Shown: piece after piece, positions 41,478-59,952 of the stretch | How the letters are laid out: the number at the start of each line of letters is the position of its first letter | How positions within the stretch are numbered: position 1 is the first letter of the stretch | Assembly: GCF_028768465.1 (NCBI RefSeq) | Contig: NZ_CP118225.1 | Coordinates: 1,655,001-1,719,000 of the forward strand | DNA from: Rhodopirellula sp. P2 | GTDB taxonomy: Bacteria; Planctomycetota; Planctomycetia; Pirellulales; Pirellulaceae | Direction of reading: 5' to 3' | DNA: 64,000 bases | Notes under the pieces: model-generated | Seen by the model: only the letters and a program-made list of their open reading frames with translations | The model's database searches: none | What the model was told of the DNA's origin: nothing | Made by a program: the position numbers and the translations under genes

Positions 41478-41494
41478 ATACTCAGGCGGGGTAT
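41478..41494. promoter_or_regulatory. Predicted CsoR operator 1
   Basis: ATACTCAGGCGGGGTAT; reverse strand ATACCCCGCCTGAGTAT. It fits ATACCCC-N5-GGTAT with one mismatch and lies 26 bases before the TTG start of the first gene of the metal cluster. Three more 17-bp sites of this kind lie in the same cluster. Confidence 0.6.
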
Positions 41495-41520
41495 GATTGA
41501 GTCCTGAGCAGAGACCACCT

Positions 41521-41985
41521 TTGAACCGATTTCTATCACTGCTGCTGATTCCGTTTTTTGTGCTGGGGCAAGCTTCGCCTCATTCACATGCGGGTAGCGG
41601 TGTGGTTGAACCGGAGGGGCATGCGAATCGGCCGCACGTTCATTTGTTGGCGAGTCAGTCGCATGACGAGGACGGGCATCATCACGGGCACAGTCATTTC
41701 GGTGGTGACGACGACGCATCGGAAGACGGGGACGGTGAAACGAACGGTGTTTCGTTGTCGTCCCTCCCAGCCGATCATGATTCGGATGCCGTTTACTTGG
41801 GGCAATCGGGCACCGCGGTAGCTCGCTCGTCAATGATCTTGGATATTGATCTGGCGTGCCTTGTTTTCGCGTCGAGCGAAGCGGTTTGCTGGCCGTTGGA
41901 GGGCCAATCTCGGGTCCATCATTCTTTCCTGGATCGCGGTTCACCGCTGCCGATCTATCTGCTCGTCCGCAGTCTGCGGATTTGA
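41521..41985 (+). CDS. Exported His/Asp-rich protein, first gene of metal-efflux cluster
   Basis: This roughly 154-residue protein begins with a signal peptide (NRFLSLLLIPFFVLGQASPHSHA). The mature part holds a metal-binding-like stretch rich in His and Asp (HDEDGHHHGHSHFGGDDD, about residues 50-70) and no other motif. The TTG at 41521 is chosen because the predicted CsoR operator ends only two bases before an alternative TTG at 41497. It is followed by the RND adaptor gene 150 bases later. The likely role is periplasmic metal buffering or delivery; family unknown. Confidence 0.7.
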   Translation: MNRFLSLLLIPFFVLGQASPHSHAGSGVVEPEGHANRPHVHLLASQSHDEDGHHHGHSHFGGDDDASEDGDGETNGVSLSSLPADHDSDAVYLGQSGTAVARSSMILDIDLACLVFASSEAVCWPLEGQSRVHHSFLDRGSPLPIYLLVRSLRI

Positions 41986-42138
41986 TTGAAGCGTTGAGAT
42001 TGTCGATCGAAGTTTGATGCTGCGCAGTTGCAGTTCGCTTTGATCGAGCGTCTCTCGTTCCGCTGTTTCTCGTGGGGTCGCTGCGATTATTCATTCGCGC
42101 GCGTTCTTCAATCAACTCGTACGAACATTGATCGATTC

Positions 42139-43575
42139 ATGAAAGCCTTCCTGCGCGCTTTGGCAGGCCCGGCGGTTGTGATTGCGTTGGCAATCGCTGC
42201 TTGGGCCTTCCGTGACCGGCTGTTTTCAACACCCGGCCTTCTCGTGGAAACCTCCGCCGAATCAACCGGTGAGGGGATCGAGAAACAGACGGTCCTCGAA
42301 ATCAGTGAACAAGCTCGTAAGAATCTAGCGCTCGTTTCCAAGGCTGCTCGTCCGCAGGACTATTGGCGGACGGTGGTGATTCCGGGCGAGGTCGCAGACC
42401 GTCCGGGACTTTCGGATCGTGGCGTGACGTCGCCTGCGGTCGGCGTCGTGACAGCGATTCACGCATTTCCTGGCGATACGATGCAGCCCGGCGATCCGCT
42501 GTTCACACTGCGGCTATTCAGCGAATACTTGCAGGCAACGCAAACGCAGTTGTTCAAGGCGAGGCAGGAAACGGCGATCGTTCAGGCGGAGATCGATCGG
42601 CTGTCGGGTGCTGTCAGTACTGGGGCCGTCTCGCGTTCCAAGATGATTGAGTTGGAAAGTGAAATCAGTCGCCAAAGGACGCTGATTCAAGCGGCCCGAC
42701 AAGAACTGCTCACTCGCGGACTGACGCCCGATCAGGTGGCTCAAATCGAAGCGGGGACATTTGTTTCAACCGTCGACGTCGTGGCTCCGCCTGTGCAGGA
42801 ATTGTCGATCGCTCTGAGTAGCGAAACTCGCCAAGAGTTTCGGCAATCGGGCGAGCCGAAAGTCTTGGCGACTTCCGCTACGTCGACTACCGAAGATCAA
42901 GGGATTGCCTACGAGGTTCAGGAGCTCTCGGTCGTGCTTGGCCAGCAAGTGCAAGCAGGCCAGTTGCTGGTGAATCTGTCGAATCACCAAATGCTCTATG
43001 TCGTTGGTCACGCCTTCAAACGCGAAGCCGCTTTTCTGGAGCAAGCCGCGCAGGAAAAGCGTCCCATTGAAGTTGAGTTTGCTGAAGACGAAATGGGGCG
43101 TTGGCCCGAACACAAGCAGACGTTCAAGATTCGGCACCTCGCAAACTCAATCGACACCAACAGTCGAACGTTCGATTTCTTCGTTCCGTTGACGAACCAA
43201 TCTCGTATGTACGGTGACCATGACCGGGCGTTCCTGGTTTGGCGTTTTCGACCAGGGCAACGGGCTCGTATCCACGTTCCGGTTGAAAAATTCGATGGCG
43301 TGTTCGTGTTGCCCCACGACGCGGTTGTTCGCGAAGGACCAGAGGCGTACGTGTTTCGGCAGAACGGCGACCTGTTCAAACAGATTCCAGTTCACGTGCT
43401 TCACGAAGATCGCCGCTCGATCGTCATCGCCAACGATGGCAGCATCCTGAGTGGAGCGTACTTGGCGCAAGGTTCGGCAGCATCGCTCAACCGAGTATTG
43501 AAATCTCAATCCGCCAGCGGCAAAGAGCCCGGCGTCCACGTCCACGCGGACGGCACTACTCACGCGGCTCACTGA
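42139..43575 (+). CDS. RND efflux adaptor (CusB/CzcB-like), system 1
   Basis: This 478-residue membrane-fusion protein has one N-terminal membrane anchor (about residues 9-25), a barrel-sandwich/lipoyl half-motif near VTAIHAFPGDTMQPGDPLF, a long helical hairpin (about 135-205), and beta-barrel and membrane-proximal domains. The C-terminus is His-rich (VHVHADGTTHAAH), suggesting metal contact. Around residues 239-248 the sequence PKVLATSATS is encoded by a copy of the dispersed repeat seen at 1105-1136 and 47121-47214, an in-frame insertion. ATG at 42139 gives the usual start. It lies nine bases before its pump gene, so the two are one operon. Confidence 0.88.
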   Translation: MKAFLRALAGPAVVIALAIAAWAFRDRLFSTPGLLVETSAESTGEGIEKQTVLEISEQARKNLALVSKAARPQDYWRTVVIPGEVADRPGLSDRGVTSPAVGVVTAIHAFPGDTMQPGDPLFTLRLFSEYLQATQTQLFKARQETAIVQAEIDRLSGAVSTGAVSRSKMIELESEISRQRTLIQAARQELLTRGLTPDQVAQIEAGTFVSTVDVVAPPVQELSIALSSETRQEFRQSGEPKVLATSATSTTEDQGIAYEVQELSVVLGQQVQAGQLLVNLSNHQMLYVVGHAFKREAAFLEQAAQEKRPIEVEFAEDEMGRWPEHKQTFKIRHLANSIDTNSRTFDFFVPLTNQSRMYGDHDRAFLVWRFRPGQRARIHVPVEKFDGVFVLPHDAVVREGPEAYVFRQNGDLFKQIPVHVLHEDRRSIVIANDGSILSGAYLAQGSAASLNRVLKSQSASGKEPGVHVHADGTTHAAH

Positions 43576-43584
43576 GAAATAAGC

Positions 43585-46500
43585 ATGCTCGATTCCATTA
43601 TCAAAATCTCGCTGCGTTATCGCATGCTGGTCGTCGTCGTCAGCCTGTTTGTGCTGGTCTACGGATCGTACCTGGCCGCTCAGATGTCGATCGACGTTTT
43701 TCCGGACCTTGACCGTCCTCGCGTGATCATCATTACCGAAGCATCTGGGCTGGCGACCGAAGAGGTCGAAACGCTGGTCACTCAGCCGATCGAGATCGCG
43801 TTGATGGGGGCCAACGGCGTCCAGGCCGTGCGAAGTCAATCGACCGCTGGGCTGAACGTCATTTACATCGAGTTCGATTGGGCGACAGAAATTCGTGCCG
43901 CGCGGCAAACCGTGCAGGAGCGATTGTCAACGCTCGAAGGCATTTTGCCCGATGGGATTCGTCCCCAAATGACGCCGCCATCTTCCATCATGGGTCAGAT
44001 CATCGTGGCGGGGATCTATCGGCAGAATGGACCCGAAGGTGGACGACTCGCTCAAGTCGGCAACACGCAAATGATGGCGGAAATGGTCGTCGATGAGACC
44101 AACAATTTCGAAATCCTCGTTTGGCGGCCCGGCGATCGCCATGACTTTTCCACATGGAAAAAGCTGAAGACGTCGGAGATCAATTGGGACGACGACTATG
44201 TGAGTCGCAGCACGCTAGCGGCGGGTTCGGGTGGCACACATCGACGAGAAGAATCGGCGGCTAGCGCCTTGCCGCTCACGGGGACTGCTTCATTTCGAGT
44301 CGATGGTAAGTCCTACGACGCCCATTTTTACACCGAGGCAAAACAACAGCTCGAGCTTCGTACCGTCGCCGACTGGATCATCCGCCCTCGACTGCTCAAG
44401 ACCACGGGTGTCGCCGAAGTCTTTATGCTTGGCGGTGATCGCAAGCAGTATCAGATTCTGATTGATCCGACGGCGTTGCTTGAATACGACGTCACCGTTC
44501 AAGACGTGGAGCAGGCGATCCGTGAGAGCAACATCAACACGAGCGGCGGGTTCGCGGTGACGGGCGAAACGGAACGGCCGATTCGTATCCTGGGCCGACT
44601 TGGCCCAGGATCTCACGCCGTGATCGAAGACTTGAAAAAGGTGCCCGTTGGCGATCACACCAAACGTGCCGTGTTGCTAGAGCAAGTGGCTCGCGTCACC
44701 GAAGGCCCGCAGTTCAAACGTGGGGACGGGAGCGTGAACGGCCATCCGGGAATCGTGTTCACGACCGTCAAACAGCCTCACGTCGATACTCGCGAGCTAA
44801 CCGATGCTGTCGCGGAGGCGTTTGTCGAAGTCGAAGCGTCTTTGCCGGCGGACATCATCGTCAACTCGGAACTGTTTCGATTGCGAAACTTCATCGACCG
44901 AGGCATTTTCAACGTCGCCGAAGCACTGGTGATTGGTGCGGTGTTGGTCGTGATCGTGCTGTTTCTGTTCTTGCTGAACTTCCGCACGACATTCATCACG
45001 CTGACCGCGATTCCGCTTTCGCTTGTGCTGACGACGCTAACGTTTCGCATCATGGGGTGGATCAGCGGCACCGAACTGTCCATCAACGTGATGACGTTGG
45101 GCGGGATTGCCGTCGCGATGGGGGAACTCGTCGATGATGCGATCGTTGATGTTGAAAACATCTTCCGGCGACTCAAGCAGAACAACCTTCACCCCATCGA
45201 CAATCGACAATCTTCAATTGTCATTGTTTTCGAGGCGAGCAAAGAAATCCGCAGCTCGATCGTGTTTGGCACGGCGGTCGTGATTCTGTCGTTCATGCCA
45301 TTGTTCGCACTCTCCGGGGTCGAAGGACGATTGTTCACGCCGCTCGGCATCGCCTACATCGTGTCGATCTTGTCGTCGTTTGTGGTCTCGATGACCGTCA
45401 CGCCGGTGCTGTCTTACTACATGCTGCCACGATCCCGAGCCACGCACAGCGAAGGAGACGGGTTTTTGTTGCATGGATTGAAAGGGATGGTGACCTATTT
45501 GATTCAGTTGAGTATGGCGATGCCGCGAACGCTGCTGATTGTGACGTGGTTTGCTGTGGTCGTCGCGGCTTGGCAGATGTCGACGCTGGGTCGGAACTTC
45601 CTGCCGCCGTTTGACGAAGGCAGTATTCAGGTCAATGTCACGTTGCCACCGGGTTCGTCGTTGGACGCTTCCAACAAAGTTTCAACGGCGATTGACTCCG
45701 TCTTTCAGTCGATGCAAAAGACCGACGGAAATCCGGATGGCGAGATTCTGCACTTCGTCCGTCGAACCGGACGAGCCGAGATGGACGAACATGCTTCGCC
45801 AGTTAACTTCGGCGAATATATCCTCAGCATGAACCCTGAATCGCCAACCGAGCGAGAAGAAATTCTGGCGAGTCTTCGCGAGAAAATTAGCGACGAAGCG
45901 CCCGGCGTTGACATTGAGGTTGAACAGCCGCTCGCTCACCTGATCAGTCACATGATCTCGGGCGTTTACGCTCAGATCGCGATCAAGATTCACGGCGACG
46001 ATTTGGACACGTTGCAGGCAGCGGCAGCGCAGGTGAAGGCAACGATTCAGGACGTGCCGGGAATCACGCCGCCGGTGATCGAGCCAATCCAAGAAACGGA
46101 TGAATTGCATATCGAACTCCGAGCAGACGATTTGGCACTCTACGGACTGACGCGCGAGTATGTTGCTGACGTCATGCAAACGGCTTTGCAGGGCGAAGTG
46201 GTTTCGCAAGTTCTCGAAGGGCAGCGTCGTTTTGATCTGCTCGTCCGACTAGAAGAAGAGTATCGCACCGACTATGCCAACCTCGATCGGCTGCGTCTTG
46301 ACTTGCCAGGCCGAGAAGGACAACCCGATCGCGGCCAGATCGAACTTCGCGACGTCGCGGACGTGAGGGTTGGCACGGGACCAAACTCGATCAATCGCGA
46401 GAATGCACGCCGCCGGATCGTGATTCGCTGCAATACCGAAGGCCGAGACTTGGCTGGAGCAGTGGGCGATATTAAACAACGGATCGGCGAACAAGTTGAA

Positions 46501-47106: not shown

Positions 47107-47120
47107 TCAACGACGCAGCG

Positions 47121-47214: not shown

Positions 47215-47256
47215 CCACAAACTCTCCACAGCTATTTCTCACACAGGAACCAATCC

Positions 47257-47792: not shown

Positions 47793-47888
47793 ATGATCTG
47801 GATGTTTTCCAAAACGCTGATTTCGGCAGCCGTGATCGTCGCGGTTGCCGAGATCGCGGGGGGATGCCGCGAGCGGGTGCGTTGTTAG
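47793..47888 (+). pseudogene. Truncated, frameshifted DUF3147-like membrane protein
   Basis: ATG at 47793 opens MIWMFSKTLISAAVIVAVAE, the start of small DUF3147-type membrane proteins that I know to follow such metal-efflux genes. At the G-run near 47860 the frame slips: in the +1 frame the family-like sequence continues GMPRAGALLA, while the original frame stops at 47888. Family resemblance ends at about 47885, exactly where the oppositely oriented outer-membrane factor gene ends. This looks like a rearrangement junction plus a frameshift. Confidence 0.6.
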
Positions 47889-49489
47889 CGGCAGCCTACG
47901 GTCTTTTCAATTTGGGCGAGGGTGCTGGCGAGACGAGCTTCGGCGCGGGCGACTTGGACTTGGAGCGATAGCAGTTCGCGGTAGGTTGCGATCAAGTCGG
48001 TGAAGTCGGCTTTCTTGCCTTGATAATCGGCGGTGGCGATTTCGAGCGTTTGCTCGGTGCGGGGAATCAGACGTTCACGGTAAAGCTCGAGTTGCTCGAT
48101 GGAAGCGTACGCGGCGGCGACTTGGCGGCGGAGCGTGCCGCGAAGCTTGTCTTGTTCGGCTTCGCGGCGGAGCGTCGTTGCCGAGCGGTCGTGGGCGGCT
48201 TCGCGGACGCCAGCGTTGATCTTGTCTCGCCAGATGGGAAGCGTCACACCGACACTGAAGTTGATATTGTCGTGTCCGTTGGCGACGGGGCTGATAACAT
48301 CATGGTCGTCACTGACGATGGAATAGCCGATGCCGAGCTGGAAGTCTGGATACTGCTGCAAGCAGGCAAGTGATTCCTTGGCACGGTCGCGGGCGATTTC
48401 GGCGGCCAGTCCTTGCAGTGTCGGATTGCAGGCTTCGGCCTCGGCGACAAGAACCTCAAGCTGCGGTGCGGCTTCACTGACGCCGATCTCGTCCACCGCC
48501 GTGGGCATCAAGTTCATGGGTTGTCGAACCAAGGCACCGAGGTCGGCGCGGGCTTGTTCTTTTTGCTGACGTAGTCCAATGAGTTGTTCTTCAAGGCGAT
48601 CGCCTTCGATTTCGGCTCGCAGAACGTCTTGCTGGCTACCACCGGTCTTGTAGCGAGCCTCGGAAACTTTGATTAGATCTTCGACCAGTTCGGTGTTGTC
48701 TTCGACGATGCGAATGAGTTCGTCGGCCAGCCAAAGTTCGTAGTACGCCAATTGGACCGCTTCGATAATTTCAATTTCGGCTCGTCGGATCTCTGCCATC
48801 GCGATCTGAACATCGCGAGCAGCGACAGCGCCGCGGGCGTCGAGTTTTTCTGGCCAGGGGACTTTCTGCGACAGCGAGAATTGATGTCCGATGCGTCCGC
48901 CAGCGGTCTGCAACGCCTGATCGTGGATTGGCCAGAACGTGTTGCCGAGCATCGGATCTTCGAGTGCGGTGACCTGCGGGATGCGGTGTTGAGCGGCCGC
49001 GACTTTTTGACGTGCCGCGGCGATCGAAGGGTGAGTTGCGAGGGCGGTTGAGACCAAAGAAGAGAGGGAGATGGGAGGTGCGGGAGAAGGGGAGTTTTCA
49101 GTGAGGAGTGAGGAGTTGTGAGCGAGGAGATCGGCGTCGCGGAAGGAATCAACTAGCTCGGAATCGTTGTAGGCATCTTCTCGTTGTTCACTTCCCGGTT
49201 CCGTGTTTCCCCCTCTCCCTGACTCCCCGTCTCCTGGGCTTCTGTTCTCCCCATTTTCTTCCTCGTGAAACCCAGTCAGTTGTACGGGAGCCTCAGTCAG
49301 CATTGGGGGGGGGCTCGTCACGGCCGCAACCGATTCCGAGGCTTTCGGCGAAACGACGCTGGTGAGCGGTTGGCCCGTGGATCGACATCCGGCGCATGCA
49401 ATCAAACACACCAGCAAAAGATTTCGCTTGGCGTTTTGCACCGCAAGTGGCGTGTTTTGTGCTGATTCAGTCATCCGTTTCATGTTCAT
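47885..49489 (-). CDS. TolC-like outer-membrane factor lipoprotein
   Basis: This 534-residue protein is an outer-membrane channel of the OMF family for RND efflux. It has a lipoprotein signal with lipobox CAGC (C35), two OEP repeats of long helices (about 155-330 and 340-530), and the typical ...YELWLADELIRIVEDNTELVEDL helix. Residues about 74-140 form a polar linker (NRSPGDGESGRGGNTEPG) whose DNA matches the insert in the second pump gene, so it is repeat-derived. It is the only OMF in the cluster, on the opposite strand, and could serve both RND pairs. Its start lies 59 bases from a predicted CsoR operator shared with the next gene. Confidence 0.9.
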   Translation of the reverse strand: MNMKRMTESAQNTPLAVQNAKRNLLLVCLIACAGCRSTGQPLTSVVSPKASESVAAVTSPPPMLTEAPVQLTGFHEEENGENRSPGDGESGRGGNTEPGSEQREDAYNDSELVDSFRDADLLAHNSSLLTENSPSPAPPISLSSLVSTALATHPSIAAARQKVAAAQHRIPQVTALEDPMLGNTFWPIHDQALQTAGGRIGHQFSLSQKVPWPEKLDARGAVAARDVQIAMAEIRRAEIEIIEAVQLAYYELWLADELIRIVEDNTELVEDLIKVSEARYKTGGSQQDVLRAEIEGDRLEEQLIGLRQQKEQARADLGALVRQPMNLMPTAVDEIGVSEAAPQLEVLVAEAEACNPTLQGLAAEIARDRAKESLACLQQYPDFQLGIGYSIVSDDHDVISPVANGHDNINFSVGVTLPIWRDKINAGVREAAHDRSATTLRREAEQDKLRGTLRRQVAAAYASIEQLELYRERLIPRTEQTLEIATADYQGKKADFTDLIATYRELLSLQVQVARAEARLASTLAQIEKTVGCR

Positions 49490-49548
49490 CCTGTCATCCT
49501 TGACGAAGATTCCTCTTGAACTCTCTTCGGCATCCGGTGATAGTATGC

Positions 49549-49565
49549 ATACCGCACTGGGGTAT
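49549..49565. promoter_or_regulatory. Predicted CsoR operator 2
   Basis: ATACCGCACTGGGGTAT; reverse strand ATACCCCAGTGCGGTAT, a full ATACCCC-N5-GGTAT match. It lies between the divergent OMF and Cys-rich protein genes, 59 and 20 bases from their starts. Confidence 0.65.
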
Positions 49566-49585: not shown

Positions 49586-50056
49586 ATGAGCCCGCACTTC
49601 ATCCGCATCATCGTCACACTTTGCCTGATCGTCGCCGCGACGATTCAGCCGATGTCGTTGCTGGCAATAGCCGCACCGTGCGGGGACGACGTTTGTGTTG
49701 TGCCATTGAAGTGCGAAGGCTGCGGTTGCTGCGACGTCGAGCATCAAAGCGACAAATGTTGCTGCTGTAGCGACGACGAATCGAAAGCGGAACGGCCCAA
49801 GTCGGATAGCGATGAGTTTAAACCTGGCGAATCGGCGCTCGCGGGCCACTGCACCTGTGGCGTGTCCAACCAGCCCATGAATCGCGGTGAATCTCGCGAA
49901 TCACTGGTCCGCGAATTGTCGTTGCGAATCGCGTCCCTGGACTTTGTCGAATTGCCCACGGAAACCATCGCGGTGCTCCGGCCAAGCGTCGTGGATGCGA
50001 CTCCGGGCAGCCGGGCGGATTTCGGCCAACGATTTCTCTGTGTTTGGCGGATTTAG
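49586..50056 (+). CDS. Exported Cys-rich protein
   Basis: This 156-residue protein has a signal peptide (about residues 1-29) and then a dense cysteine cluster (KCEGCGCCDVEHQSDKCCCC, about 43-61), with another C-x-C at about residue 92. The rest is polar with no known domain. Such a cluster suggests binding of soft metals such as Cu(I) or Ag(I) in the periplasm. It sits 20 bases after a predicted CsoR operator and before a TRASH/YHS-type lipoprotein gene. I do not recognise the family. Confidence 0.7.
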   Translation: MSPHFIRIIVTLCLIVAATIQPMSLLAIAAPCGDDVCVVPLKCEGCGCCDVEHQSDKCCCCSDDESKAERPKSDSDEFKPGESALAGHCTCGVSNQPMNRGESRESLVRELSLRIASLDFVELPTETIAVLRPSVVDATPGSRADFGQRFLCVWRI

Positions 50057-50158: not shown

Positions 50159-50509
50159 ATGCGCTTTTTCATTGGCACGGCAGCGTTGCTGCTGATTATG
50201 TCCGCTGCCATCGTTGGATGCAGCGAGCCGTCCGACACGGCATCGACTCCTGCAGTAGCCGACCCCGTCGAGGCCACGGCGGTTACGTTTGCGAACACGA
50301 AGTGCCCCATCATGGGTGGCAGTCCGACGGCGGAGCTAACGGTCGAGTATGACGGCAAAACGATCGGCTTTTGTTGCGACGGCTGCCCCGAAAAGTGGGC
50401 CGATCTGAGCGACGACGCGAAGGCGGAGAAGTTCGCCAAGGTGGACGCTCACGCGGGGCACGACCGCGCGGATGGCGACCACGATCACTCAGATCATTCC
50501 CGCGAATAA
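50159..50509 (+). CDS. Lipoprotein with a YHS/TRASH-like metal-binding motif
   Basis: This 116-residue protein has a lipoprotein signal with lipobox IVGC (C21). The mature part contains the Cys pattern KCPIMGGSPTAELTVEYDG and then GFCCDGCPEKW, a treble-clef-like YHS/TRASH motif, and ends in a His/Asp-rich tail (HAGHDRADGDHDHSDHS). It probably binds copper or a similar metal at the envelope. It lies about 100 bases after the Cys-rich protein gene and before the second RND set. Confidence 0.8.
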   Translation: MRFFIGTAALLLIMSAAIVGCSEPSDTASTPAVADPVEATAVTFANTKCPIMGGSPTAELTVEYDGKTIGFCCDGCPEKWADLSDDAKAEKFAKVDAHAGHDRADGDHDHSDHSRE

Positions 50510-50568
50510 GTTCGCAAACGGCTACAGCCTGTAAGGCGTGTTCGATGACGGTTTTGGCGTAACTAACG

Positions 50569-50666
50569 CGTGAACAACAAGTGAGGATCGTTAGCGGTGC
50601 GGCGCAAGCCGCCCGGTGAGGAATCGGAGGGCTCGCGCCCTTCCGCTACGTCACTTGTTGCTCACG
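50569..50666. repeat. 98-bp MITE-like element with 16-bp inverted ends
   Basis: The ends are CGTGAACAACAAGTGA and TCACTTGTTGCTCACG, inverted with one mismatch. Inside are two G/C-rich hairpin sequences (GGTGCGGCGCAAGCCGCC and GGAGGGCTCGCGCCCTTCC). It contains no frame of note and lies between the YHS lipoprotein and the second adaptor gene. No target-site duplication is obvious. Confidence 0.65.
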
Positions 50667-50728
50667 TGGTCTTAAGTCGCGGCCGTTGTTGAACGCCTTT
50701 TGCGAGTTGATCCAACGGGAAATCAATC

Positions 50729-52858
50729 ATGAGTCATCCAGAAACGCAGTCCCAGACTGCGCCGCCGAAACGCACGCTTCGTCAACGACTCGCCGGCCTC
50801 CGCTGGTTGGGCCGAACGATGACGCATGCGCTGGTTCTTTTAGCAACGTTTATCATCGGCATCGCGATGATCGGCGTCGCGCAGCGGCAAGGTTGGATAC
50901 GTAGTGGCGATGGTGTTGCATCCAACGCGACATCGAGCGACAGCGGCGAGACGATTTACACCTGTCCGATGCACCCACAGATTCGTCAAAACGAGCCGGG
51001 CGATTGCCCGATTTGTGCAATGAAGTTGGTGCCGGCGGCGGGTGATGCGGAGGCGGCATCCACCCAGGATCCCTCCGGTGACGAACGGTACATTTGCCCG
51101 ATGATGTGCACGCCTCCCTCGACGGAGCCCGGGCGTTGTCCGGTGTGTGCGATGGAACTGGTCAAGGCAACCGGCGGTGGCGGCGGCGATGGAGTGTCCA
51201 TCACGATCGAGCCGGCGGCACGCCGTTTGATTGGGATTCAAACCGGAGTTGCCGAACTGGGCTCTGTCTCGCAAACGATCCGAACGATCGGTTCGATTGA
51301 CTACGACGAAAGTAAATTGGCCACGATCAGTGCCTATGTCGATGGACGGATCGAAGAACTCTACGCGGACTATGTCGGCGTGCCGGTCGCACAGAACGAT
51401 GACTTGGCGTTGATCTATTCGCCCGATTTGTATTCCGCCCAAGTCGAGTACTTAACGGCGATCCAAGGCACGGGACTGAAGCGGTTAGGTGGAACCACCA
51501 ACTTCGGTGAACTATCGAAACAGAAATTGGTTGAACTGGGTTTGACGGAGGATCAGGTTGCCGAGCTGCGATCTCGCGGCAAGGCGGAAAGCCGCATCCG
51601 CGTTCGATCGCCCATTCAAGGGACCGTCATCGGTAAGTTCGCGGTCGAAGGCGACTACCTCAAAACCGGCGACAAGATTTACCGGATCGCTGATCTGTCG
51701 ACCGTCTGGTTGATGCTGGACTTGTATCCCGACGACGCTGCTCGGGTTCGTTTCGGACAACAAGTCGAAGCCGAAGTCAGTTCGATGCCCGGCGACGTGT
51801 TCACTGGTCGTGTCGCTTTCATTGATCCGACCGTGAATTCGACGACGCGGACCGTGCAAGTTCGCGTCGAGATGCTCAACGCAGACGGAAACCTGAAACC
51901 CGGCGACTACGCGACTGCGCGAGTCTACGTGCCCGCGATTCGGCAGGATCGAATTTACGATCCGGCATTGGCGAACAAATACATCAGCCCAATGCACCCG
52001 CAGATCATTCGCGAAAGCCCCGGTGATTGTCCGATCTGTGGCATGGACTTGATACCCACATCGAAGCTCGGTTACGCCAGCGAGCCGTTGCCGAAACAGC
52101 AAGTCGTCACGGTGCCCCGCGATGCCGTATTGATGACGGGCGAGAACAGTGTCTTGTACGTCGAAACAGAACCCGGTCGGTTTGAAATTCGCCGCGTGTC
52201 GGTCGGCCCCATGACGGACGATCGAGCCGTGATCCTAGAAGGCATGTCGGCGGGCGAAACGGTTGCCACGAACGGCAACTTTTTGATCGACTCGCAAATG
52301 CAGCTTGCCGGTAATCCGTCATTGATGGACCCGAGCAGAGCGGCGACGTATCCGCCCGGCCCGTTGGAATTACCAAGCAGCGAACCGATTGTTTTGGATG
52401 GCGATGGAGCCGAGCAGTTTGATCGCGCTTACGACGCGTACTTTGCCATCCAAAAATCGCTCGCGGCCGATCAAACGCCGTCGCCATCTGAACTGACCAA
52501 GCTGGAAATTGCACTCGGTCAACTCACCGAAGCAGCGAACGTTCCCGATGAAGCCCAAAGTCATCTACAGAACGCCAAGCGATCACTGCAACGGATGAAT
52601 GGATCCATGGAGCTGTTTCGCAAGGCATTTCGTCCCGTCAGTCATGCCATGCTTCGCGCCGCCACGATTGTTCGCGGCAAATCGACCGCAACGAAGTTGG
52701 TTCACATGTATTGCCCGATGGTGCCAGGCGGCGGAGGTGATTGGATGCAGCCGGAAGGTGAACTGGTCAATCCGTACTGGGGCAGCGAAATGCTCTCGTG
52801 CGGCGAAGTCGTTCGAGACATGGCGATAGCGAACCCTGCGAAGACCAAGGATCGCTAG
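50729..52858 (+). CDS. cusB: CusB-like RND adaptor with three heavy-metal-binding domains
   Basis: This 709-residue adaptor has a membrane anchor (about residues 31-50), then two heavy-metal-binding domains of the YTCPMHP...GDCPICAM type (about 77-101 and 121-145). The adaptor core follows (hairpin, lipoyl and beta-barrel, about 158-410). A third such domain (about 418-443) interrupts the core before its last beta domain; its first Cys is Ser (YISPMHP). A helical region and a C-terminal DUF3347-like motif end the protein (661-694, MYCPMVPGGGGDW and LSCGEV). These domains are known to bind Cu(I)/Ag(I). It lies two bases before cusA. Confidence 0.92.
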   Translation: MSHPETQSQTAPPKRTLRQRLAGLRWLGRTMTHALVLLATFIIGIAMIGVAQRQGWIRSGDGVASNATSSDSGETIYTCPMHPQIRQNEPGDCPICAMKLVPAAGDAEAASTQDPSGDERYICPMMCTPPSTEPGRCPVCAMELVKATGGGGGDGVSITIEPAARRLIGIQTGVAELGSVSQTIRTIGSIDYDESKLATISAYVDGRIEELYADYVGVPVAQNDDLALIYSPDLYSAQVEYLTAIQGTGLKRLGGTTNFGELSKQKLVELGLTEDQVAELRSRGKAESRIRVRSPIQGTVIGKFAVEGDYLKTGDKIYRIADLSTVWLMLDLYPDDAARVRFGQQVEAEVSSMPGDVFTGRVAFIDPTVNSTTRTVQVRVEMLNADGNLKPGDYATARVYVPAIRQDRIYDPALANKYISPMHPQIIRESPGDCPICGMDLIPTSKLGYASEPLPKQQVVTVPRDAVLMTGENSVLYVETEPGRFEIRRVSVGPMTDDRAVILEGMSAGETVATNGNFLIDSQMQLAGNPSLMDPSRAATYPPGPLELPSSEPIVLDGDGAEQFDRAYDAYFAIQKSLAADQTPSPSELTKLEIALGQLTEAANVPDEAQSHLQNAKRSLQRMNGSMELFRKAFRPVSHAMLRAATIVRGKSTATKLVHMYCPMVPGGGGDWMQPEGELVNPYWGSEMLSCGEVVRDMAIANPAKTKDR

Positions 52859-52860
52859 CC

Positions 52861-55800
52861 ATGCTGAATTTGATCATCCGTTTTTGCGTGAAAGAGCCGT
52901 TGCTCGTTGTCCTGCTCGCTTTCGCTCTCAGCGTCGGCGGTTGGTTCGCGTTCAAGGCGGTGCCGATCGACGCGATCCCGAACGTGGGTGAGAACCAAGT
53001 CATCGTGCTGACGTCTTGGCCGGGACGCTCCCCGAAGGACATCGAGGATCAAGTCACCTACCCGCTCAGTGTTTCGTTGCTGGCGGTGCCGGGGGCGGAC
53101 TCGGTGCGTGGCAAGAGCATGTTCGGTTACAGCTTCGTGCAGGTGACGTTCAAGGATTCGATCGACTTCTATTGGGCGCGCAGTCGCGTTTCGGAGCAGC
53201 TTGGGACGGCTGCAGCTCAGTTGCCCGAGGGCGTCGTGCCGCAGCTTGGCCCCGACGCGACCGGTCTCGGCCAAGTCTACTACTACACGTTGATTCCACC
53301 GCAGGTGAATGGGGGGCAGTCGCCAGAGGAAGGCATGGGGTTGGACGAGCTTCGCAGCCTGCAAGACTTCGTTGTGAAGTATGAATTGCAAGCCGTCGAG
53401 GGCGTCAGCGAAGTGGCGTCGATCGGTGGTTATGTTCGCCAATACCAGATCGATGTCGACCCTGATAAGTTGCGGTTCCACAATGTGTCGCTCGACAAAT
53501 TGGTGGTGGCAATCAAGGGATCAAATGTCGATGTCGGGGCGAAGACCGTTGAGTCCACCGGAATGGAGTACATCGTCCGCGGCAAGGGCTTCATCGGTGG
53601 CGAGGGCGATCAAGCCAAGGCAATTCGTGACATCGAAGAAACGGTCATTCTGCAACGGGATGGGGTGCCCGTCCGCGTCAGTGATGTCGCCAGCGTCCAA
53701 CTTGGCCCCGACTTTCGCCGCGGTGCGTTGGACTACAACGGCACCGAAGCCGTCGGCGGCGTGGTGGTGATGCGGCACGGTGAGAACCCGAGGGTTGTGA
53801 TCGACCGTGTCAAAGCCAAGATCGCTCAAATCGAGCCGGCGCTCAAAGGGGTACGCATCCACGGCGTCTATGATCGCAGCGGTCTGATCGACGAAACGAT
53901 GGCGACGCTGACGCATGCGTTGCGAGATGAAATTATCATCACGGCCATCATCATCTTGTTGTTTCTGCTTCACATTCGCAGCAGCATCGTCGTTGCGATT
54001 TGCTTGCCCACCGCCGTGCTGATGTCGTTCATTGCGATGCACTTTGTCGGCGTTGGTGCAAACATCATGTCGTTGGCTGGGATCGCGATCGCGATTGGGA
54101 CGATGGTCGACATGGCGATCATCGTTTCAGAGAACATCTATCAACATCTGGCTGAAAGAGAGGGGCAGTTGGGGAGTCAGAGCGAGGGAGAGTCGCAGAG
54201 TCTGGAAGCATCACCGCTTCCAGACTCCTCCACTCCCGCTCGTCTTTCACGTGCCGAAACCACCTACGAAGCAACGGTCGAAGTCGCCCCGGCTGTGGTC
54301 ACGGCCGTGGCAACCACGATTGTTAGTTTTCTGCCGGTGTTCTTTCTCACCGGCCGCGACTATCGACTGTTCTCTCCCTTGGCGTTCACGAAGACCTTCG
54401 CAATTGCCGCCGCGATGATTGCTGCTGTGACGCTCGTTCCCGCGCTGAGTCGCCTGCTACTGCGCAATGCGACGTATCGAAAACCAACGGCCGCGATTGC
54501 CGCAGTGTTTCTCGGCGCGGTGCTGTCGTTGTTGTCGCATTTCTATTGGGGCGATGACGTTGCCAGCTATCTTGGAATTGCCCCTTGGATCGTGACCTGC
54601 GTCGCCGGCGTCAGTGGATTGATCCTCGGTTGGCAGTGGACGCGAGAACGCATTCGACCACTCGAAGCAATTCCGACCAGTCGATTCATTCACTGGGTTT
54701 ACGCGGCGCGGCTTCGCCAGGCACTCCAGCACAAAGTGATCGCTCTATCGTTTCCGCTGATGTTGCTGGTGCTGGGCATCGGTGCCTACGTCGGACTGCC
54801 GACTGTTCTGAAACCGGTCGAGCGGGCGGCAAGTCTTGTCGGGACGGACCTGAACAGTTTGCCGGGTTACGTCGATGCGAAACATGTTTTCACGGGTTTG
54901 CAAAGCGACGACTGGATTGCATTGGACGAAGGAAGTTGGTTCTACATGCCGACCCTGTATCCGGCCGCCAGTTTTTCCCAAGCGATGCAGGTGCTACAAA
55001 CGCAGGACGTGTTGATCGGGCAGATTCCCGAAGTCAAAGACGTGCTTGGGAAAATCGGTCGCGTCGAGTCAGCACTTGATCCCGCTCCTGCTGCGATGGT
55101 CGAAACCTATGTGATGCTCAAGCCGGAAAGCGAATGGCGAGATGGCGTCACCTCGCGAGATGTTTGGGATGAGATCAACCGAGTCGCGACGTTGCCCGGC
55201 GTGACGCCGGCCTCGGCCCTGCAGCCAATCGAAGGCCGCGTCGTGATGTTGCAGTCTGGCATCAAGGCTCCGATGGCAATTCGTGTTTACGGCGACGACC
55301 TTGAAACACTCGCCACCGCAGCGATGGATGTGGCGGGCCAGTTGAAGCAGTCGCCGTACGTCAACGCTGGTACTGTCAACCCGGACATCGTGCTTGGCAA
55401 GCCGTATTTGGAATTCACCGTTGATCGGGAAGCGGCTTCGCGATACGGGATGAACGCCTCCATGGTGAACCAAGTGATTGAGACGGCACTTGGCGGGATG
55501 AATCTGATCAAGACCGTCGAAGGTCGTGAGCGATACCCCGTTCGTTTGCGATACAACCGAGACCTGCGTGAACGCATCGAAGGACTCAAACGCTTGCCGG
55601 TGGTGACTCAGTCGGACGCAGTCGTACCGCTGGAAGAACTCGCCGCGTTGGAAACGACTTGGGGACCGGGTGCGATCAACAGCGAGAACGGCCGGCTGAT
55701 TGCTCACGTTGCTTTCATGACCAACGGAGCGGCCGGAGATTTAGAGTCTGTCGCCGCGATTGAAGAGCAGCTACGCGAGGCCCAGGCATTGCCGTCAAGC

Positions 55801-56481
55801 AACGCGAATCATCTCGCGCTTCCCACAGGTTACTCGCTTGAATCAGTCGGCAGTTTTCGCAACCAGATCGAAGCCAACCGCCGGCTGATGTGGATCATTC
55901 CTTTGGTCATGTCGATCAACCTTCTGCTGATCTACATGGGGTTTCGCAACCTGCCGATTTCTTTGGCCGTGTTCTCTGGGATCCCCGTCGCATTTGCGGG
56001 CGGGATGATCCTGGTCGCGTGGATGCAGGTCGAACTGAACACCGCCGTGTGGGTCGGGTTCATCGCGTTGTTTGGGCTTGCCGTTGACGACGGTGTTGTG
56101 ATGGCAACTTACATCCATCAATTGTTGCGGCAGCGAAAAATTGAGAGCGTCGAAGATATCCGCAACACGGTCTACGAAGCAGGGCTGAAACGCATTCGTC
56201 CCTGCATGATGACCACCGTCACGACACTCGCCGCATTGATTCCCGTGATGATCGCGACGGGCCGTGGAGCCGATGTGGCGCGAGCCATGGCGATCCCTGT
56301 GTTTGGCGGAATGCTTGTTGAGCCGTTCACGTCATTCATTGTGCCGACGCTGTATTGCAGCTACCTCGAACTGAAAATACGTTTTGGAATGCAGGACGAA
56401 TTGTGGAAGGGCGTCGAGGAGATGCCTGCTGAGAAACTTCTGAACGTGCGTGTTCAGAGACAACCCATTACTGAAAGGTGA
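52861..56481 (+). CDS. cusA: CusA-like Cu/Ag RND efflux pump, system 2
   Basis: This 1,206-residue pump starts at ATG 52861 (MLNLIIRFCVKEP), directly after the adaptor stop. The TM4 motif is AIGTMVDMAIIVSENIYQHL, as in Cu/Ag-type HME pumps, and TWGPGAINSENG and LGGMNLIKTVEGRERYPV are CusA-like. Methionine-rich positions typical of CusA are present in the porter region. The TM4-TM5 loop has a 30-residue polar insert (about 434-463, GQLGSQSEGESQSLEASPL) whose DNA resembles the OMF insert. About 65 residues with two extra hydrophobic helices (about 539-606) are inserted between TM6 and TM7. Substrate: Cu(I)/Ag(I), by family and context. Confidence 0.93.
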   Translation: MLNLIIRFCVKEPLLVVLLAFALSVGGWFAFKAVPIDAIPNVGENQVIVLTSWPGRSPKDIEDQVTYPLSVSLLAVPGADSVRGKSMFGYSFVQVTFKDSIDFYWARSRVSEQLGTAAAQLPEGVVPQLGPDATGLGQVYYYTLIPPQVNGGQSPEEGMGLDELRSLQDFVVKYELQAVEGVSEVASIGGYVRQYQIDVDPDKLRFHNVSLDKLVVAIKGSNVDVGAKTVESTGMEYIVRGKGFIGGEGDQAKAIRDIEETVILQRDGVPVRVSDVASVQLGPDFRRGALDYNGTEAVGGVVVMRHGENPRVVIDRVKAKIAQIEPALKGVRIHGVYDRSGLIDETMATLTHALRDEIIITAIIILLFLLHIRSSIVVAICLPTAVLMSFIAMHFVGVGANIMSLAGIAIAIGTMVDMAIIVSENIYQHLAEREGQLGSQSEGESQSLEASPLPDSSTPARLSRAETTYEATVEVAPAVVTAVATTIVSFLPVFFLTGRDYRLFSPLAFTKTFAIAAAMIAAVTLVPALSRLLLRNATYRKPTAAIAAVFLGAVLSLLSHFYWGDDVASYLGIAPWIVTCVAGVSGLILGWQWTRERIRPLEAIPTSRFIHWVYAARLRQALQHKVIALSFPLMLLVLGIGAYVGLPTVLKPVERAASLVGTDLNSLPGYVDAKHVFTGLQSDDWIALDEGSWFYMPTLYPAASFSQAMQVLQTQDVLIGQIPEVKDVLGKIGRVESALDPAPAAMVETYVMLKPESEWRDGVTSRDVWDEINRVATLPGVTPASALQPIEGRVVMLQSGIKAPMAIRVYGDDLETLATAAMDVAGQLKQSPYVNAGTVNPDIVLGKPYLEFTVDREAASRYGMNASMVNQVIETALGGMNLIKTVEGRERYPVRLRYNRDLRERIEGLKRLPVVTQSDAVVPLEELAALETTWGPGAINSENGRLIAHVAFMTNGAAGDLESVAAIEEQLREAQALPSSNANHLALPTGYSLESVGSFRNQIEANRRLMWIIPLVMSINLLLIYMGFRNLPISLAVFSGIPVAFAGGMILVAWMQVELNTAVWVGFIALFGLAVDDGVVMATYIHQLLRQRKIESVEDIRNTVYEAGLKRIRPCMMTTVTTLAALIPVMIATGRGADVARAMAIPVFGGMLVEPFTSFIVPTLYCSYLELKIRFGMQDELWKGVEEMPAEKLLNVRVQRQPITER

Positions 56482-56486
56482 AATCG

Positions 56487-57599
56487 ATGAAACGAATATT
56501 TGCGACAGGAATGCTTGCCGTTTTGACGTTCTCGGCCTCGTTGTCGATCAACGCGGAAGAAAAAGTGATTGCACCGGCAGCACCTCGCACGGTGGCAGGC
56601 CCCCACGGAGGAACGCTCCGCCAAATCGACGGTTTGCAAGCGGAAACAATTGTGACCGACGCCGGAATCCGAGTTCACTTGTTCGATCGAGACGCCAACC
56701 CTATCAGCAACGCGGGCAGTCGCGGGGTGGCGGCGGTACGTGTCGCAGGAGGTGCGAAACGCTACCGATACGACTTGATGCCCGATGAAACGGGGGGACT
56801 GACCGCACGCATCAACTTAGCCCCGATTGCTGGGCGCCCGTTGACAATCGACGTTCAATTGGTGGGTGTCAGCGGAAGGAACGCGACCAACGTCGTGTAC
56901 ACCGAAGTGGCCTCGGTGCCGCTGAATGAATTGCAACTTGCTGCCGCCGCGATCGCTCGCCAGAAGACGTGTCCGGTTTCCGGCAAACCGCTCGGCAGCA
57001 TGGGCGACCCGGTCGCAGTCTCCACTGGCGATCAACGAGTCTTTGTCTGCTGTGCCGGTTGCGTTGATGCCGTCAAGGCAAACCCAGGCAAGTATGCCAG
57101 CGGCAAGCCGACCGTCGAGATCGCAACGGTCGCCGCCGGCGACGCCGCTCTCATTGCAAAACAATCGACTTGTCCCGTGATGGACGAGCCACTGGGAAGC
57201 ATGGGGCAACCCGTCAAGCTGTTGGTGGCTGGCAAGCCGCTGTTTCTGTGTTGCAAAGGCTGTGTGAAGAAGGTGCAAGCCGAACCGGCGAAGTACTTCA
57301 CGATGATCGATGGGGAGAAGCCAGCTGGTAGTGGCCCAACCGTTGCCGGCGGAACCGATGCGGTTCGGCCTGGCGTGTTCAAAGCCACGGCTGCCGACAA
57401 GCCATTCATTGCCGCGCAAAAGAGGTGCCCCGTCATGGACGAAGCACTCGACGCGATGGGCGGACCGTACCAAGTCAACGCGGCCGGCAAAGCGATCTAT
57501 ATCTGCTGCCCTGGTTGCGCGAAGAAGATTGCAGCAGAACCGGAGAAGTACTTGGGGATGTTGAACTCACAAGGTGTTGAGGCACCGGTAATCAAGTAA
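56487..57599 (+). CDS. Exported protein with three TRASH/YHS-like metal-binding repeats
   Basis: This 370-residue protein has a signal peptide (about residues 1-22), a beta-rich domain (about 35-150), then three repeats of a Cys motif, CPV-x4-PLGSMG...C-C-x-G-C, at about 162-205, 229-272 and 314-357. Each repeat keeps four cysteines and an EPAKY-type end, and would bind one soft metal ion. It starts five bases after cusA with a good ribosome site (AAAGGTGA). It probably acts as a periplasmic metal trap or chaperone for the pump. The GGGAGTG/CACTCCC hairpin right after the stop could be a terminator but lacks a T-run. Confidence 0.85.
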   Translation: MKRIFATGMLAVLTFSASLSINAEEKVIAPAAPRTVAGPHGGTLRQIDGLQAETIVTDAGIRVHLFDRDANPISNAGSRGVAAVRVAGGAKRYRYDLMPDETGGLTARINLAPIAGRPLTIDVQLVGVSGRNATNVVYTEVASVPLNELQLAAAAIARQKTCPVSGKPLGSMGDPVAVSTGDQRVFVCCAGCVDAVKANPGKYASGKPTVEIATVAAGDAALIAKQSTCPVMDEPLGSMGQPVKLLVAGKPLFLCCKGCVKKVQAEPAKYFTMIDGEKPAGSGPTVAGGTDAVRPGVFKATAADKPFIAAQKRCPVMDEALDAMGGPYQVNAAGKAIYICCPGCAKKIAAEPEKYLGMLNSQGVEAPVIK

Positions 57600-57705
57600 G
57601 GGAGTGTTTGCTCTCCCTCACTCCCAATCCCTTCTTTGCGGGGGTGGTGTCCGGTCCGATTCGATGCTCCGGCTTCGATGACGCCACACGCCACCCCTGC
57701 CTTTT

Positions 57706-57984
57706 TCACTTTCTGTACTTGCGGAAGATCGTCATCACCTCGTCGAGCTTCGCTTGACGTTCAGCGTCGCTCCCGCTTTCCATCGCTTCGCGGACGCAGC
57801 GATTCAGATGCTGGTCCAGTACGATTTCGCCGACGCGGTGCAAGGCACCCGTTGCGGCTGATAGCTGCATCAGGATATCGACGCAGTACTCGTCTGCTTC
57901 GATCATACGACGAACCGCCTCCACTTGGCCGTTGATGCGGCTGAGCCGATGGGCGAGCTTCTTTTTCTCGTCGGCGGAGAGCAT
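57706..57984 (-). CDS. csoR: CsoR-type copper-sensing repressor
   Basis: This 92-residue all-helical repressor of the CsoR/RcnR family has the Cu(I) triad C34-H59-C63 (EYCVDIL, DQHLNRC), and lacks the N-terminal His of nickel/cobalt RcnR, so Cu(I) is the expected ligand. It also has the family's RINGQVEAVRRMIE. It is on the opposite strand to the efflux genes and is not preceded by an obvious copy of the predicted operator, so it may not be autoregulated. It is the only regulator in the cluster and the natural candidate to bind the four ATACCCC-N5-GGTAT palindromes. Confidence 0.9.
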   Translation of the reverse strand: MLSADEKKKLAHRLSRINGQVEAVRRMIEADEYCVDILMQLSAATGALHRVGEIVLDQHLNRCVREAMESGSDAERQAKLDEVMTIFRKYRK

Positions 57985-58284
57985 TCGGGGACTTTGGGGC
58001 GAATTCGGATCACGTGATCGGGCATTTTACTCTGCAAAGGGTCCCGCCGTTAGACCGCTTCACATCATCCTTTTGGGTGCCGACCGGGAGGCATCTGGAT
58101 CGCCACAGTGACGCAGGAATTCCGGGGAGACTGCTCCACTTTGCGAGTCGTGGTCGTTGTCCGTCACTCAATCACGACCAGTCGTCAGGGGGGCTGTGCT
58201 CTCGGTCCCCCACGTCACCTTTTTTTCGCCAGGCAAGTCTTCGTTACCATCAGCCAGCGATCGATTTGGATAGAAGATGTTTGG
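57985..58284. other. Gap between csoR and broken GxxExxY gene
   Basis: 300 bases with no gene. Short runs of C/G and T-rich blocks only. I see no operator matching the ATACCCC-N5-GGTAT pattern. Confidence 0.5.
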
Positions 58285-59114
58285 TTAGAAAATGTGGTGG
58301 AGGCTCGGTCGAGGACGATCTTCTAACCTCCCATTTTTTAACCTTGTTCCTCCAGTCGATTCGATTCGCACGAGATCTGGTGTGACGTTGATCCAGTGAA
58401 AATGTTTCAATCGAGCGGTTTGACGCATGCGGTTCAGGTGGGTTCGGTAGTTGGCTTGTCCGGTTTCCAACGCGGTCACGACAAAGGCTTCGTTCTCAGC
58501 GGAAAAATTGAACCGCTGAAAGACGTCCCGATCTGCCCAGACTCGCCTCCGTTCGGTTCGACCAATGTTAGAAATGAGGCATTCCGTGTAGAGCGTGTTG
58601 GACAACTTGGTGACCAGGTCTCGCAGCATCTCGATCGTAACTTCATGCAGTTCCGTCGGGCCTCGATAGTCGACTGCATCGATCTCAAGGGTTCACCTTT
58701 TGCTCAGTGTGTCGGCGCAGTTGACGAATTTTGATTCGACCTTGTGGGGCGAAAGTTGACGATTTCTGCCCGAGTTGCATTCAACAGGCGAAGGTAGTTC
58801 AGGACTTGGCCAATGTGTGCTTTCTCGATCGCGGCGACTGTCTTGAATTCATAGAGCCCGGACTCGTTGACGACCAGATCGAGGCGATACGTTTTGGAGA
58901 ATGTGCCGAACGAGACGGTCAGTGCGACTTCACGCGTGGATGACGAAAGCTTGTCCAGGATTCGGTTGTGCATCTCGGCCTGGTAGATTGTCTCATCCCA
59001 GTGACAGCCGCATTCGTTGTGTACCTCGAACGCGACTTCCATCACTTGGTAGTCGAGCTTGCCAAATCCTTCGCTCGTCAGGGGCGTTAGGTCGATGGGG
59101 CAGTGGACGGGCAT
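58285..59114 (-). pseudogene. Broken GxxExxY (PD-(D/E)xK-like) protein gene
   Basis: The 5' part (59114 to about 58730) encodes DYQVMEVAFEVHNECG, DETIYQAEMHNRI and YEFKTVAAIEKAHIGQVLNY, the GxxExxY family pattern with the C-terminal nuclease-like core. At about 58752 one base is missing in a C-run (CGCCCCAC): the true frame continues with PHKVESKFVNCADTL, then meets an in-frame TGA near 58703. A second open segment (58629-58285) encodes the helical C-terminal part (LTKLSNTLYTEC, ARLKHFHWINV). Two lesions make it a likely pseudogene. GxxExxY proteins are of unknown function. Confidence 0.65.
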
Positions 59115-59171
59115 GAGATCGCCGGCAGTGGGTTTGGTTAGAAGGTGTGGCCGAGGCTGCGACAACTCGAT

Positions 59172-59546
59172 TTAGGCGTCAACCGGTCGTCCAAAAACAT
59201 GGTGCTCCAAAGGGGCCGGAAACGATCTCCGCGAGGCAAAACTACCCCCGTCCCTTTTTCGCCGTCGCGTCCCTTTTTCGCCGTCCGGGCCGGCATTCAA
59301 GTCGCTGCCGTCAACGCGGACGCCGGGGAACAGCGGACCGCTCGGGTCAAGTTGCTCTAATCCGTAGGGTGCCGACGGGACCGGTGGTGGTGGGGTGAAA
59401 GTTCGTCCGATTGGCAAGTTCATGCTGTTCACGGGTGACCCCATACTTCCCATCGACGGTCTTTGTGCCTTCGTCGTAGAAAGCCATCCGGTTGACACAA
59501 TGATCAATAGCCCGAACTTGAATAAAAACGATCGCACGGAAATCAC
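59172..59546 (-). CDS. Small exported protein under a predicted CsoR operator
   Basis: This 124-residue protein has a signal peptide (MISVRSFLFKFGLLIIVSTG-type, cleaved near TKA) and a short Pro/Ser-rich mature part (FTPPPPVPSAPYGLEQL) with no known domain. A 19-base unit (gtccctttttcgccgtc plus two bases) is duplicated in tandem at 59250-59285. Because 19 is not a multiple of three, the duplication changes the frame of the last 35 residues: with one copy the tail would differ and run past 59172. It is therefore a candidate for slippage. The start is 49 bases from a predicted CsoR operator (59596-59612). Confidence 0.6.
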   Translation of the reverse strand: MISVRSFLFKFGLLIIVSTGWLSTTKAQRPSMGSMGSPVNSMNLPIGRTFTPPPPVPSAPYGLEQLDPSGPLFPGVRVDGSDLNAGPDGEKGTRRRKRDGGSFASRRSFPAPLEHHVFGRPVDA

Positions 59547-59595
59547 TCCCTTAATCTAAGCGGTGGCATGTCGACGTGCCACTGAGATCGACCAC

Positions 59596-59612
59596 ATACC
59601 ATACGGGGGTAT
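59596..59612. promoter_or_regulatory. Predicted CsoR operator 3
   Basis: ATACCATACGGGGGTAT; reverse strand ATACCCCCGTATGGTAT, a full ATACCCC-N5-GGTAT match. It lies 49 bases upstream of the minus-strand exported-protein gene. Confidence 0.65.
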
Positions 59613-59935
59613 CAGGAAAGGAACATTGTCGCACGCACTTTGCAGGTACCGTTCGGGTTGTGCCGATTATGTAAACTCTGCGCTGGTCGATCATCGATCA
59701 ATCAGAACGATGTGAGCTTGGCCGCCTGTGGTCCCAACCATTCACCGTCGTTGACATGCTACGCCGACTCATCGGTGCCGCCGCAATCATCCGATTCAGA
59801 TGCAAACGGCAGGTCGGAGAAAGCAAACCGGGCGTCCGTCCCTATCGCGACGGTCTTTCTGCCGGCCGGACTGGTAGCGGTCATCTCCGTCGTGGGCAGG
59901 GTCTATTCTCCACCGTCATGCTGATAACTGGATAT

Positions 59936-59952
59936 ATACCCCGTGCTGGTAT
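59936..59952. promoter_or_regulatory. Predicted CsoR operator 4
   Basis: ATACCCCGTGCTGGTAT, a full ATACCCC-N5-GGTAT match. It lies 76 bases upstream of the four-helix copper-storage gene. Confidence 0.65.

Follow-up and report, generated by a model that had tools for sequence, protein, structure and literature searches.

Predicted CsoR operators at copper genes in two clusters of the planctomycete Rhodopirellula sp. P2

The window considered here is a stretch of 64,000 nucleotides from Rhodopirellula sp. P2 (assembly GCF_028768465.1, contig NZ_CP118225.1, positions 1,655,001 to 1,719,000), which carries a cluster of copper genes with four 17-bp palindromes and a gene for the copper-sensing repressor CsoR. 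The first-pass annotation had described the palindromes as sharing ATACCCC-N5-GGTAT, as lying 20-76 bases upstream of genes, and as defining a predicted CsoR regulon. All four are present at the coordinates it gave, and three of the four (49549, 59596 and 59936) are well supported by sequence comparison as predicted CsoR operators. The palindromes and the principal intact genes near them are the following, where CysR is a label used here for an exported Cys-rich protein:

41478..41494, no strand: candidate CsoR operator ATACTCAGGCGGGGTAT, one mismatch, 26 bp before the likely TTG start at 41521
41521..41985, plus strand: His-rich exported protein (start TTG 41497 or 41521; export judged by eye)
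47885..49489, minus strand: outer-membrane factor (OMF; OEP family), divergent from CysR; PF02321, E 1.7e-39
49516..49544, plus strand: promoter-like TTGAAC-17-GATAGT of the CysR gene; the operator begins 4 bp after it
49549..49565, no strand: predicted CsoR operator ATACCGCACTGGGGTAT between the CysR gene and the divergent OMF, kept at CysR promoters
49586..50056, plus strand: CysR, with conserved Cys positions and a C-terminal LCxWR motif
50159..56481, plus strand: YHS-like protein, CusB and CusA, 3' of CysR, by profile matches
56478..57599, plus strand: TRASH/YHS metal-binding-repeat protein, by profile match
57706..57984, minus strand: csoR, with the Y-C-H-C-E copper-ligand signature and RLxR motif
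59596..59612, no strand: predicted CsoR operator ATACCATACGGGGGTAT of a decayed OMF-multicopper oxidase-csoR operon, homologous to C1:143268
59936..59952, no strand: predicted CsoR operator ATACCCCGTGCTGGTAT upstream of csp
60029..60361, plus strand: csp, four-helix-bundle copper storage protein, by similarity to solved Csp structures

The shared pattern is exact on one strand at 49549, 59596 and 59936 and has one mismatch at 41478, and all four sites contain a TAC-N9-GTA inverted repeat around G/C tracts. The counted gaps to starts agree with the range first reported: 26 bases from the 41478 site to the TTG at 41521 (just 2 to the longer TTG open reading frame (ORF) at 41497), 20 from the 49549 site to CysR and 59 to the divergent OMF, 49 from the 59596 site to the ORF at 59172-59546, and 76 from the 59936 site to csp. 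The palindromes fit the published type-2 operator of CsoR: in streptomycetes the type-2 consensus reads ATATACCCCTNAGGGGTATAT and includes a TAC-N9-GTA repeat, and ATACCCCTGGTGGGTAT occurs within the csoR operator of S. lividans (PMC3902906; this paper, PMC10141476 and PMC5171941 are cited throughout from passages of their text).

Genome-wide, the exact pattern is confined to copper clusters. It occurs five times in 7.29 Mb, all five in two such clusters, the window's own and one at C1:140-164 kb, with none for a reversed control. The shorter form ATACC-N7-GGTAT occurs at six places, all within the same two clusters (control 0), and the only one-mismatch matches outside them, C1:2709939 and C1:4431249, both fall within long ORFs. 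Looser counting was tried and set aside as evidence: with up to 2 mismatches the genome counts are 51 and 52 against 39 and 50 for the reversed pattern, and with up to 3 the window has 23 matches, where 100 shuffles average 16.0 (sd 4.95) and 15 of them reach 23. Since these counts are near their controls, the signal rests in the exact and one-mismatch sites. In the comparisons that follow, a site is a match to at least 9 of the 10 bases of ATACC-N7-GGTAT and at least 11 of the 14 of ATACCCC-N3-GGGGTAT.

The second cluster shows that the predicted regulon is larger than the four window sites. Its features are:

C1:140671: site between csp and copA
C1:143268: site before OMF, multicopper oxidase (MCO), csoR, a channel-like gene and a small Cys-rich protein gene, all on one strand
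C1:159535: site with 1 mismatch between a CysR paralogue and an OMF gene
C1:163738: site with 1 mismatch before an extracytoplasmic function (ECF) sigma-factor gene
about C1:163179-163754 (L026:12180-12755): ECF sigma-factor gene with a CsoR-type operator, 180 aa

Genes for CusB, CusA and a TRASH-repeat protein lie behind the CysR paralogue of this cluster. Two further genes were noted beside its csoR: directly behind it an ion-channel-like membrane protein (L025:15799-16833, C1:146798-147832; PF07885, E 1.2e-9), and then a second small Cys-rich protein of 133 aa (L025:16921-17322, C1:147920-148321) that has no Pfam or NCBIfam match.

The CsoR protein of the window matches PF02583 (Trns_repr_metal) over the whole profile (1-78 of 78, E 1.8e-28), and its closest PDB relative, 4m1p, is a CsoR. 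The genome has two PF02583 genes, one per copper cluster; the statement that the cluster has a single metal regulator thus stands for the main window proteins scanned but not for the genome, which holds the second CsoR at C1:146525. Both proteins carry the Y-C-H-C-E residues, that is, the Cys-His-Cys ligands together with the second-shell Tyr and Glu of the CsoR Cu(I) site. Cys-His-Cys is given as the Cu(I) ligand set of CsoR in PMC10141476, and the helix-1 RLxR motif described in PMC3902906 reads RLSR in the window protein.

Sites and CsoR were followed together among relatives, a genome being counted as CsoR-positive on any PF02583 match. Among 241 Pirellulaceae genomes CsoR is found in 51, the Cys-rich family in 58 and both in 45; in a set of 60 genomes made up of relatives and the own genome, a CsoR-family gene occurs in 19, an exact site in 17 and both in 11. 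Six of the 60 have an exact site with no CsoR (G013, G014, G019, G022, G037 and G041). Searches by tblastn with reference proteins in the fetched stretches found no copper module near the exact sites of these six or near the site of the CsoR-positive G023 at C1:6856248, the stretches from G019 and G013 giving just remote matches to resistance-nodulation-division (RND) or OMF proteins, and these sites are probably due to chance.

Promoters were also compared between CsoR-positive and CsoR-negative genomes, in a comparison whose two groups differ in ancestry, include some incomplete CsoR-negative genomes and do not represent independent events. A site is present at 49 of 69 CysR promoters in CsoR-positive genomes versus 0 of 13 in CsoR-negative ones, and at 26 of 26 csp promoters versus 1 of 4, the sole CsoR-negative csp site having an altered first arm. 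The CysR count comprises 51 and 29 loci, the window and L080, and leaves out L202 (at a contig edge), the fragment G571:C924 and the weak short matches G454:C1 and G009:C48; its reversed control gives 0/51, 0/29 and 0/2. The csp count comprises 30 loci, one per genome, of the 56 genomes with a match. By eye, the csp operator is gone from CsoR-negative G003 with the flanking sequences still recognisable, and CsoR-negative G575 has an altered csp site and an ECF site without its left arm.

Across a phylum-wide sample, CsoR-family genes are found in 55 of 392 genomes. At the 29 best-scoring loci from the 54 of these other than the own genome, with CsoR frames chosen by hidden Markov model, a site lies within 500 bp upstream of 12 of the 20 csoR genes of the Y-C-H-C type; reversed and downstream controls give 0, and shuffles give means of 0.075 and 0.03 loci. 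The link of site to CsoR, which had been put forward on grounds of inference, is strongly supported by comparison because sites lie upstream of copper-type csoR genes, occur together with CsoR, are mostly absent or altered in genomes that lack CsoR and fit the published operator.

Apart from the unequal ancestry just described, several observations weigh against this reading. No site lies in the 500 bp before the start of the window csoR, which would therefore depend on an operator 1.6 kb away, via a broken operon. In the own genome and near relatives only 4 of 25 csoR-family loci carry a site in the 500 bp upstream of the gene; three of these four (L071, L072 and L073, from stretches L101, L100 and L102) are of P-C-Y-C or E-C-H-H type; not being copper-type, they speak for the operator class and not for copper. 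Two of the nine phylum loci without the Y-C-H-C signature, both D-C-H-H, also have a site. Eight of the 60 genomes have CsoR and no exact site, and 20 of the 69 CsoR-positive CysR promoters fall below the site threshold, six of these with a perfect 10-base core. Most of the other near-relative csoR genes are last in an operon with a site further upstream; in L096 and L097, for example, a site stands before copA, which is followed by a Y-C-H-C csoR. Separately, it was noted that L082 and L085 (from G004 and G006) encode a diverged second CsoR with C-H-S replacing C-H-C, that in each stretch two of the three sites have the form TTACC-N7-GGTAT on one strand, and that such a site lies just upstream of the channel-like gene in both genomes (L082:3070, L085:14544).

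The sites before non-copper-type loci raise the possibility that the protein recognising the palindromes is a CsoR-family sensor for a signal other than copper, in the manner of RcnR, FrmR or CstR, and that the copper genes are neighbours by chance. Related regulators do have similar G-tract palindromes, and the two D-C-H-H phylum loci and the three P-C-Y-C or E-C-H-H loci of relatives fit such an account. It is nevertheless highly improbable, as both CsoR proteins of the genome have the Y-C-H-C-E copper signature and many genomes have the sites at csp, copA, OMF-MCO and Cus-type genes. Scarcely probable at all is that the sites are operators of another regulator encoded elsewhere, of the MerR, CopY or two-component type; the analysis included no whole-genome scan for other copper regulators, but the sites track CsoR presence in the window's family, immediately precede copper-type csoR genes in the phylum-wide sample and conform to the known CsoR operator. 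The palindromes are thus, on the sequence comparisons, very probably type-2 operators of the copper-sensing repressor CsoR, from which it would be released by Cu(I).

Conservation is uneven among the four. The palindromes at 49549, 59596 and 59936 are kept in related clusters, 49549 and 59936 with a tie to CsoR presence, and 59596 through its homology to C1:143268 and through a site before OMF1 in 9 of the 12 stretches from relatives in which OMF1 is present with an identity of 47% or above. The 41478 palindrome does not belong to this conserved set, being imperfect, the weakest of the four and not kept in relatives. The His-rich gene behind it is followed by a CusB/CusA-type RND efflux pair and then by another His-rich protein gene. 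His-rich relatives are found in 14 of the 60 genomes, own included, and none of the 14 related loci outside the own genome (from 13 genomes, three being weak matches) has a site above threshold within 300 bp upstream, a further point against assigning 41478 to CsoR. This site may be real and recent, or chance. That it is a chance near-match, with the His-rich/CusBA-type operon outside the CsoR regulon, has a probability a little short of even: its mismatch to the exact pattern, the 0 of 14 result and a His-rich relative in G012, a genome with no CsoR match, speak for chance, against which stand a perfect GGGGTAT arm, a distance of 26 bp to the likely start and, in L114, a comparably placed but weaker palindrome. 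In L117 a site lies about 520 bp upstream.

The CysR gene is well supported, from its promoter sequences, as a member of the predicted regulon. At 39 of 48 site-bearing CysR promoters a TTGAAC-like and a GATA-like hexamer are found with a spacing of 16 or 17 bp and the operator 4 or 6 bp downstream, by a pattern composed after the alignment had been viewed. The protein itself has no Pfam or NCBIfam match and its AlphaFold2 model is poor (mean pLDDT 61, pTM 0.23); the YHS-like, CusB and CusA genes are perhaps co-transcribed with it.

The csp product is similar to solved Csp proteins (6zif RkCSP3, E 4.5e-19; 5fig CSP3, E 3.4e-5) and matches NCBIfam TIGR04401 only below its cut-off. Between csp and csoR lie remnants of an older arrangement:

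58063..58167, minus strand: C-terminal remnant of MCO adjoining csoR; 35 aa, 46% identity, E 1.3e-5
59172..59546, minus strand: truncated N-terminus of OMF, the "small exported protein" of the first-pass annotation; 57/93 identical, E 9e-32
59740..59829, minus strand: weak C-terminal remnant of copA between the two operators; 30 aa, 50%, E 0.006

At the DNA level, 58024-58080 matches the MCO end (E 3e-7), 59299-59790 matches C1:143088-143564 at 66% over 504 nt (E 9e-33), spanning the copA end, the operator and the OMF start, and 59934-59991, around the csp operator, matches C1:140632-140689 (E 0.002). By these alignments, 57706-60361 is a shrunken copy of a csp-copA-OMF-MCO-csoR module in which csp, csoR and both operators are kept, which explains the presence of two operators about 340 bp apart. 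The collapsed module suggests that the window csoR is still transcribed from the 59596 promoter. The ORF at 59172-59546 was accordingly rejected as an independent exported protein and regulon member, since it is a broken OMF fragment with the MCO remnant downstream in the ancestral order. Two uncharacterised exported proteins had been tied to copper; the tie holds for the Cys-rich family and not for the truncated OMF, so that the window sites firmly link just one undescribed exported family to the regulon.

Two side observations concern this region. A PDDEXK_3 nuclease-superfamily gene lies at 58704-59165 on the minus strand, within the collapsed OMF-MCO-csoR stretch. An element like GCGGCAACGGGGCCGC, seen by eye between the csp operator and start at about 59975-60000 of the window and in csp loci L285-L314, is retained by CsoR-negative G003, has diverged in the window and may form a hairpin in the 5' untranslated region.

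The ECF sigma-factor gene of the second cluster is probably also in the predicted regulon, judged by its upstream sequence: at the ECF loci of close relatives (30 loci of 67 genomes) a (G/T)TACCC...GGGTAT site lies just upstream in 26 of 30, with 0 for the reversed control. In six loci (L159-L162, L164 and L165) the gene ends 22-56 bp from a convergent OMF gene, so close that no further gene could fit between them. In L168 and L170 it is directly followed by a same-strand gene of 253-259 aa with no Pfam match above cut-off, and in the own genome by two same-strand ORFs with no Pfam match. No recognisable anti-sigma gene is thus found behind the ECF gene in the nine named loci and the own genome; a divergent one is possible.

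As judged by eye, a TATAAT-like box is overlapped by the operator at copA and csp, and at the ECF gene the operator is directly followed by a TACAAT-like box, a placement that fits repression by blocking of the core promoter. In the mechanism that we infer, covering CsoR binding, its release by Cu(I), the operon structure and the promoter positions, apo-CsoR would block transcription from TAC-N9-GTA sites at or over core promoters, and Cu(I) bound at the Cys-His-Cys site would release it from the operators. The genes derepressed would be those for the storage protein Csp, the P-type exporter CopA, OMF, MCO and CsoR itself, for the Cys-rich exported protein with its CusBA pump, and probably for the ECF sigma factor. 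There is about an even chance that this holds for Pirellulaceae in general, with one CsoR operator type serving a broad copper programme that includes the Cys-rich family and, unusually, an ECF gene with no recognisable anti-sigma gene behind it at the loci inspected, and with operators that erode in csoR-less lineages where the flanking promoter DNA can remain. If so, a further layer of transcription, run through an ECF sigma factor, would come under the control of a cytosolic copper repressor.

CsoR, its operator, Csp and the Cus systems are of known kinds; new, as far as searches of titles and partial texts show, are the planctomycete regulon, the tie of the Cys-rich family and the ECF link. 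Judged mainly by titles and abstract starts, no CsoR regulon in Planctomycetota is described in the literature found, and judged by the same parts no link of CsoR, an ECF sigma factor and copper is described. A marine survey counted copper regulators by homology, its cited passages containing no planctomycete CsoR regulon (PMC10141476). The analysis thus offers a planctomycete CsoR regulon with its sites, genes and a comparison provided by natural loss, and marks the Cys-rich family (58 of 241 family genomes) and the ECF sigma factor as likely copper genes in the lineage of a marine bacterium.

Among known systems, the closest parallel is the CsoR regulon of S. lividans, with type-2 operators at csoR, copZA1 and copZA2 (PMC3902906), which shares the TAC-N9-GTA repeat, the 17-bp core ATACCCC-N5-GGTAT, the RLxR motif of the regulator and copper ATPase genes as targets. 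Unlike that regulon, the predicted targets here add csp, OMF, MCO, Cus-type RND, Cys-rich family and ECF sigma-factor genes. The csp product resembles 6zif RkCSP3, 5fig CSP3 and 5fjd copper storage protein 1 over nearly its full length, is Cys-rich and, like known Csp proteins, has no signal peptide seen by eye, but differs in the predicted CsoR operator at its gene's promoter; the Csp3 paper links B. subtilis CsoR to copZ and copA, csp regulation not being mentioned in its cited passages (PMC5171941). The copper-responsive ECF sigma factor CorE of Myxococcus (PMC10141476) is likewise linked to copper genes and binds copper through a Cys-rich C-terminal extension, whereas the factor found here has 180 aa with sigma-70 profiles nearly to its end, and a CsoR-type operator at its gene. 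M. tuberculosis, with RicR and CsoR, also has two CsoR-type regulators per genome and a regulon that takes in a multicopper oxidase, a small copper-binding protein and the regulator's own gene (PMC10141476). RicR and CsoR are described there as parallel pathways, whereas the two CsoRs of Rhodopirellula sp. P2 may share targets, because both clusters carry the same operator type.

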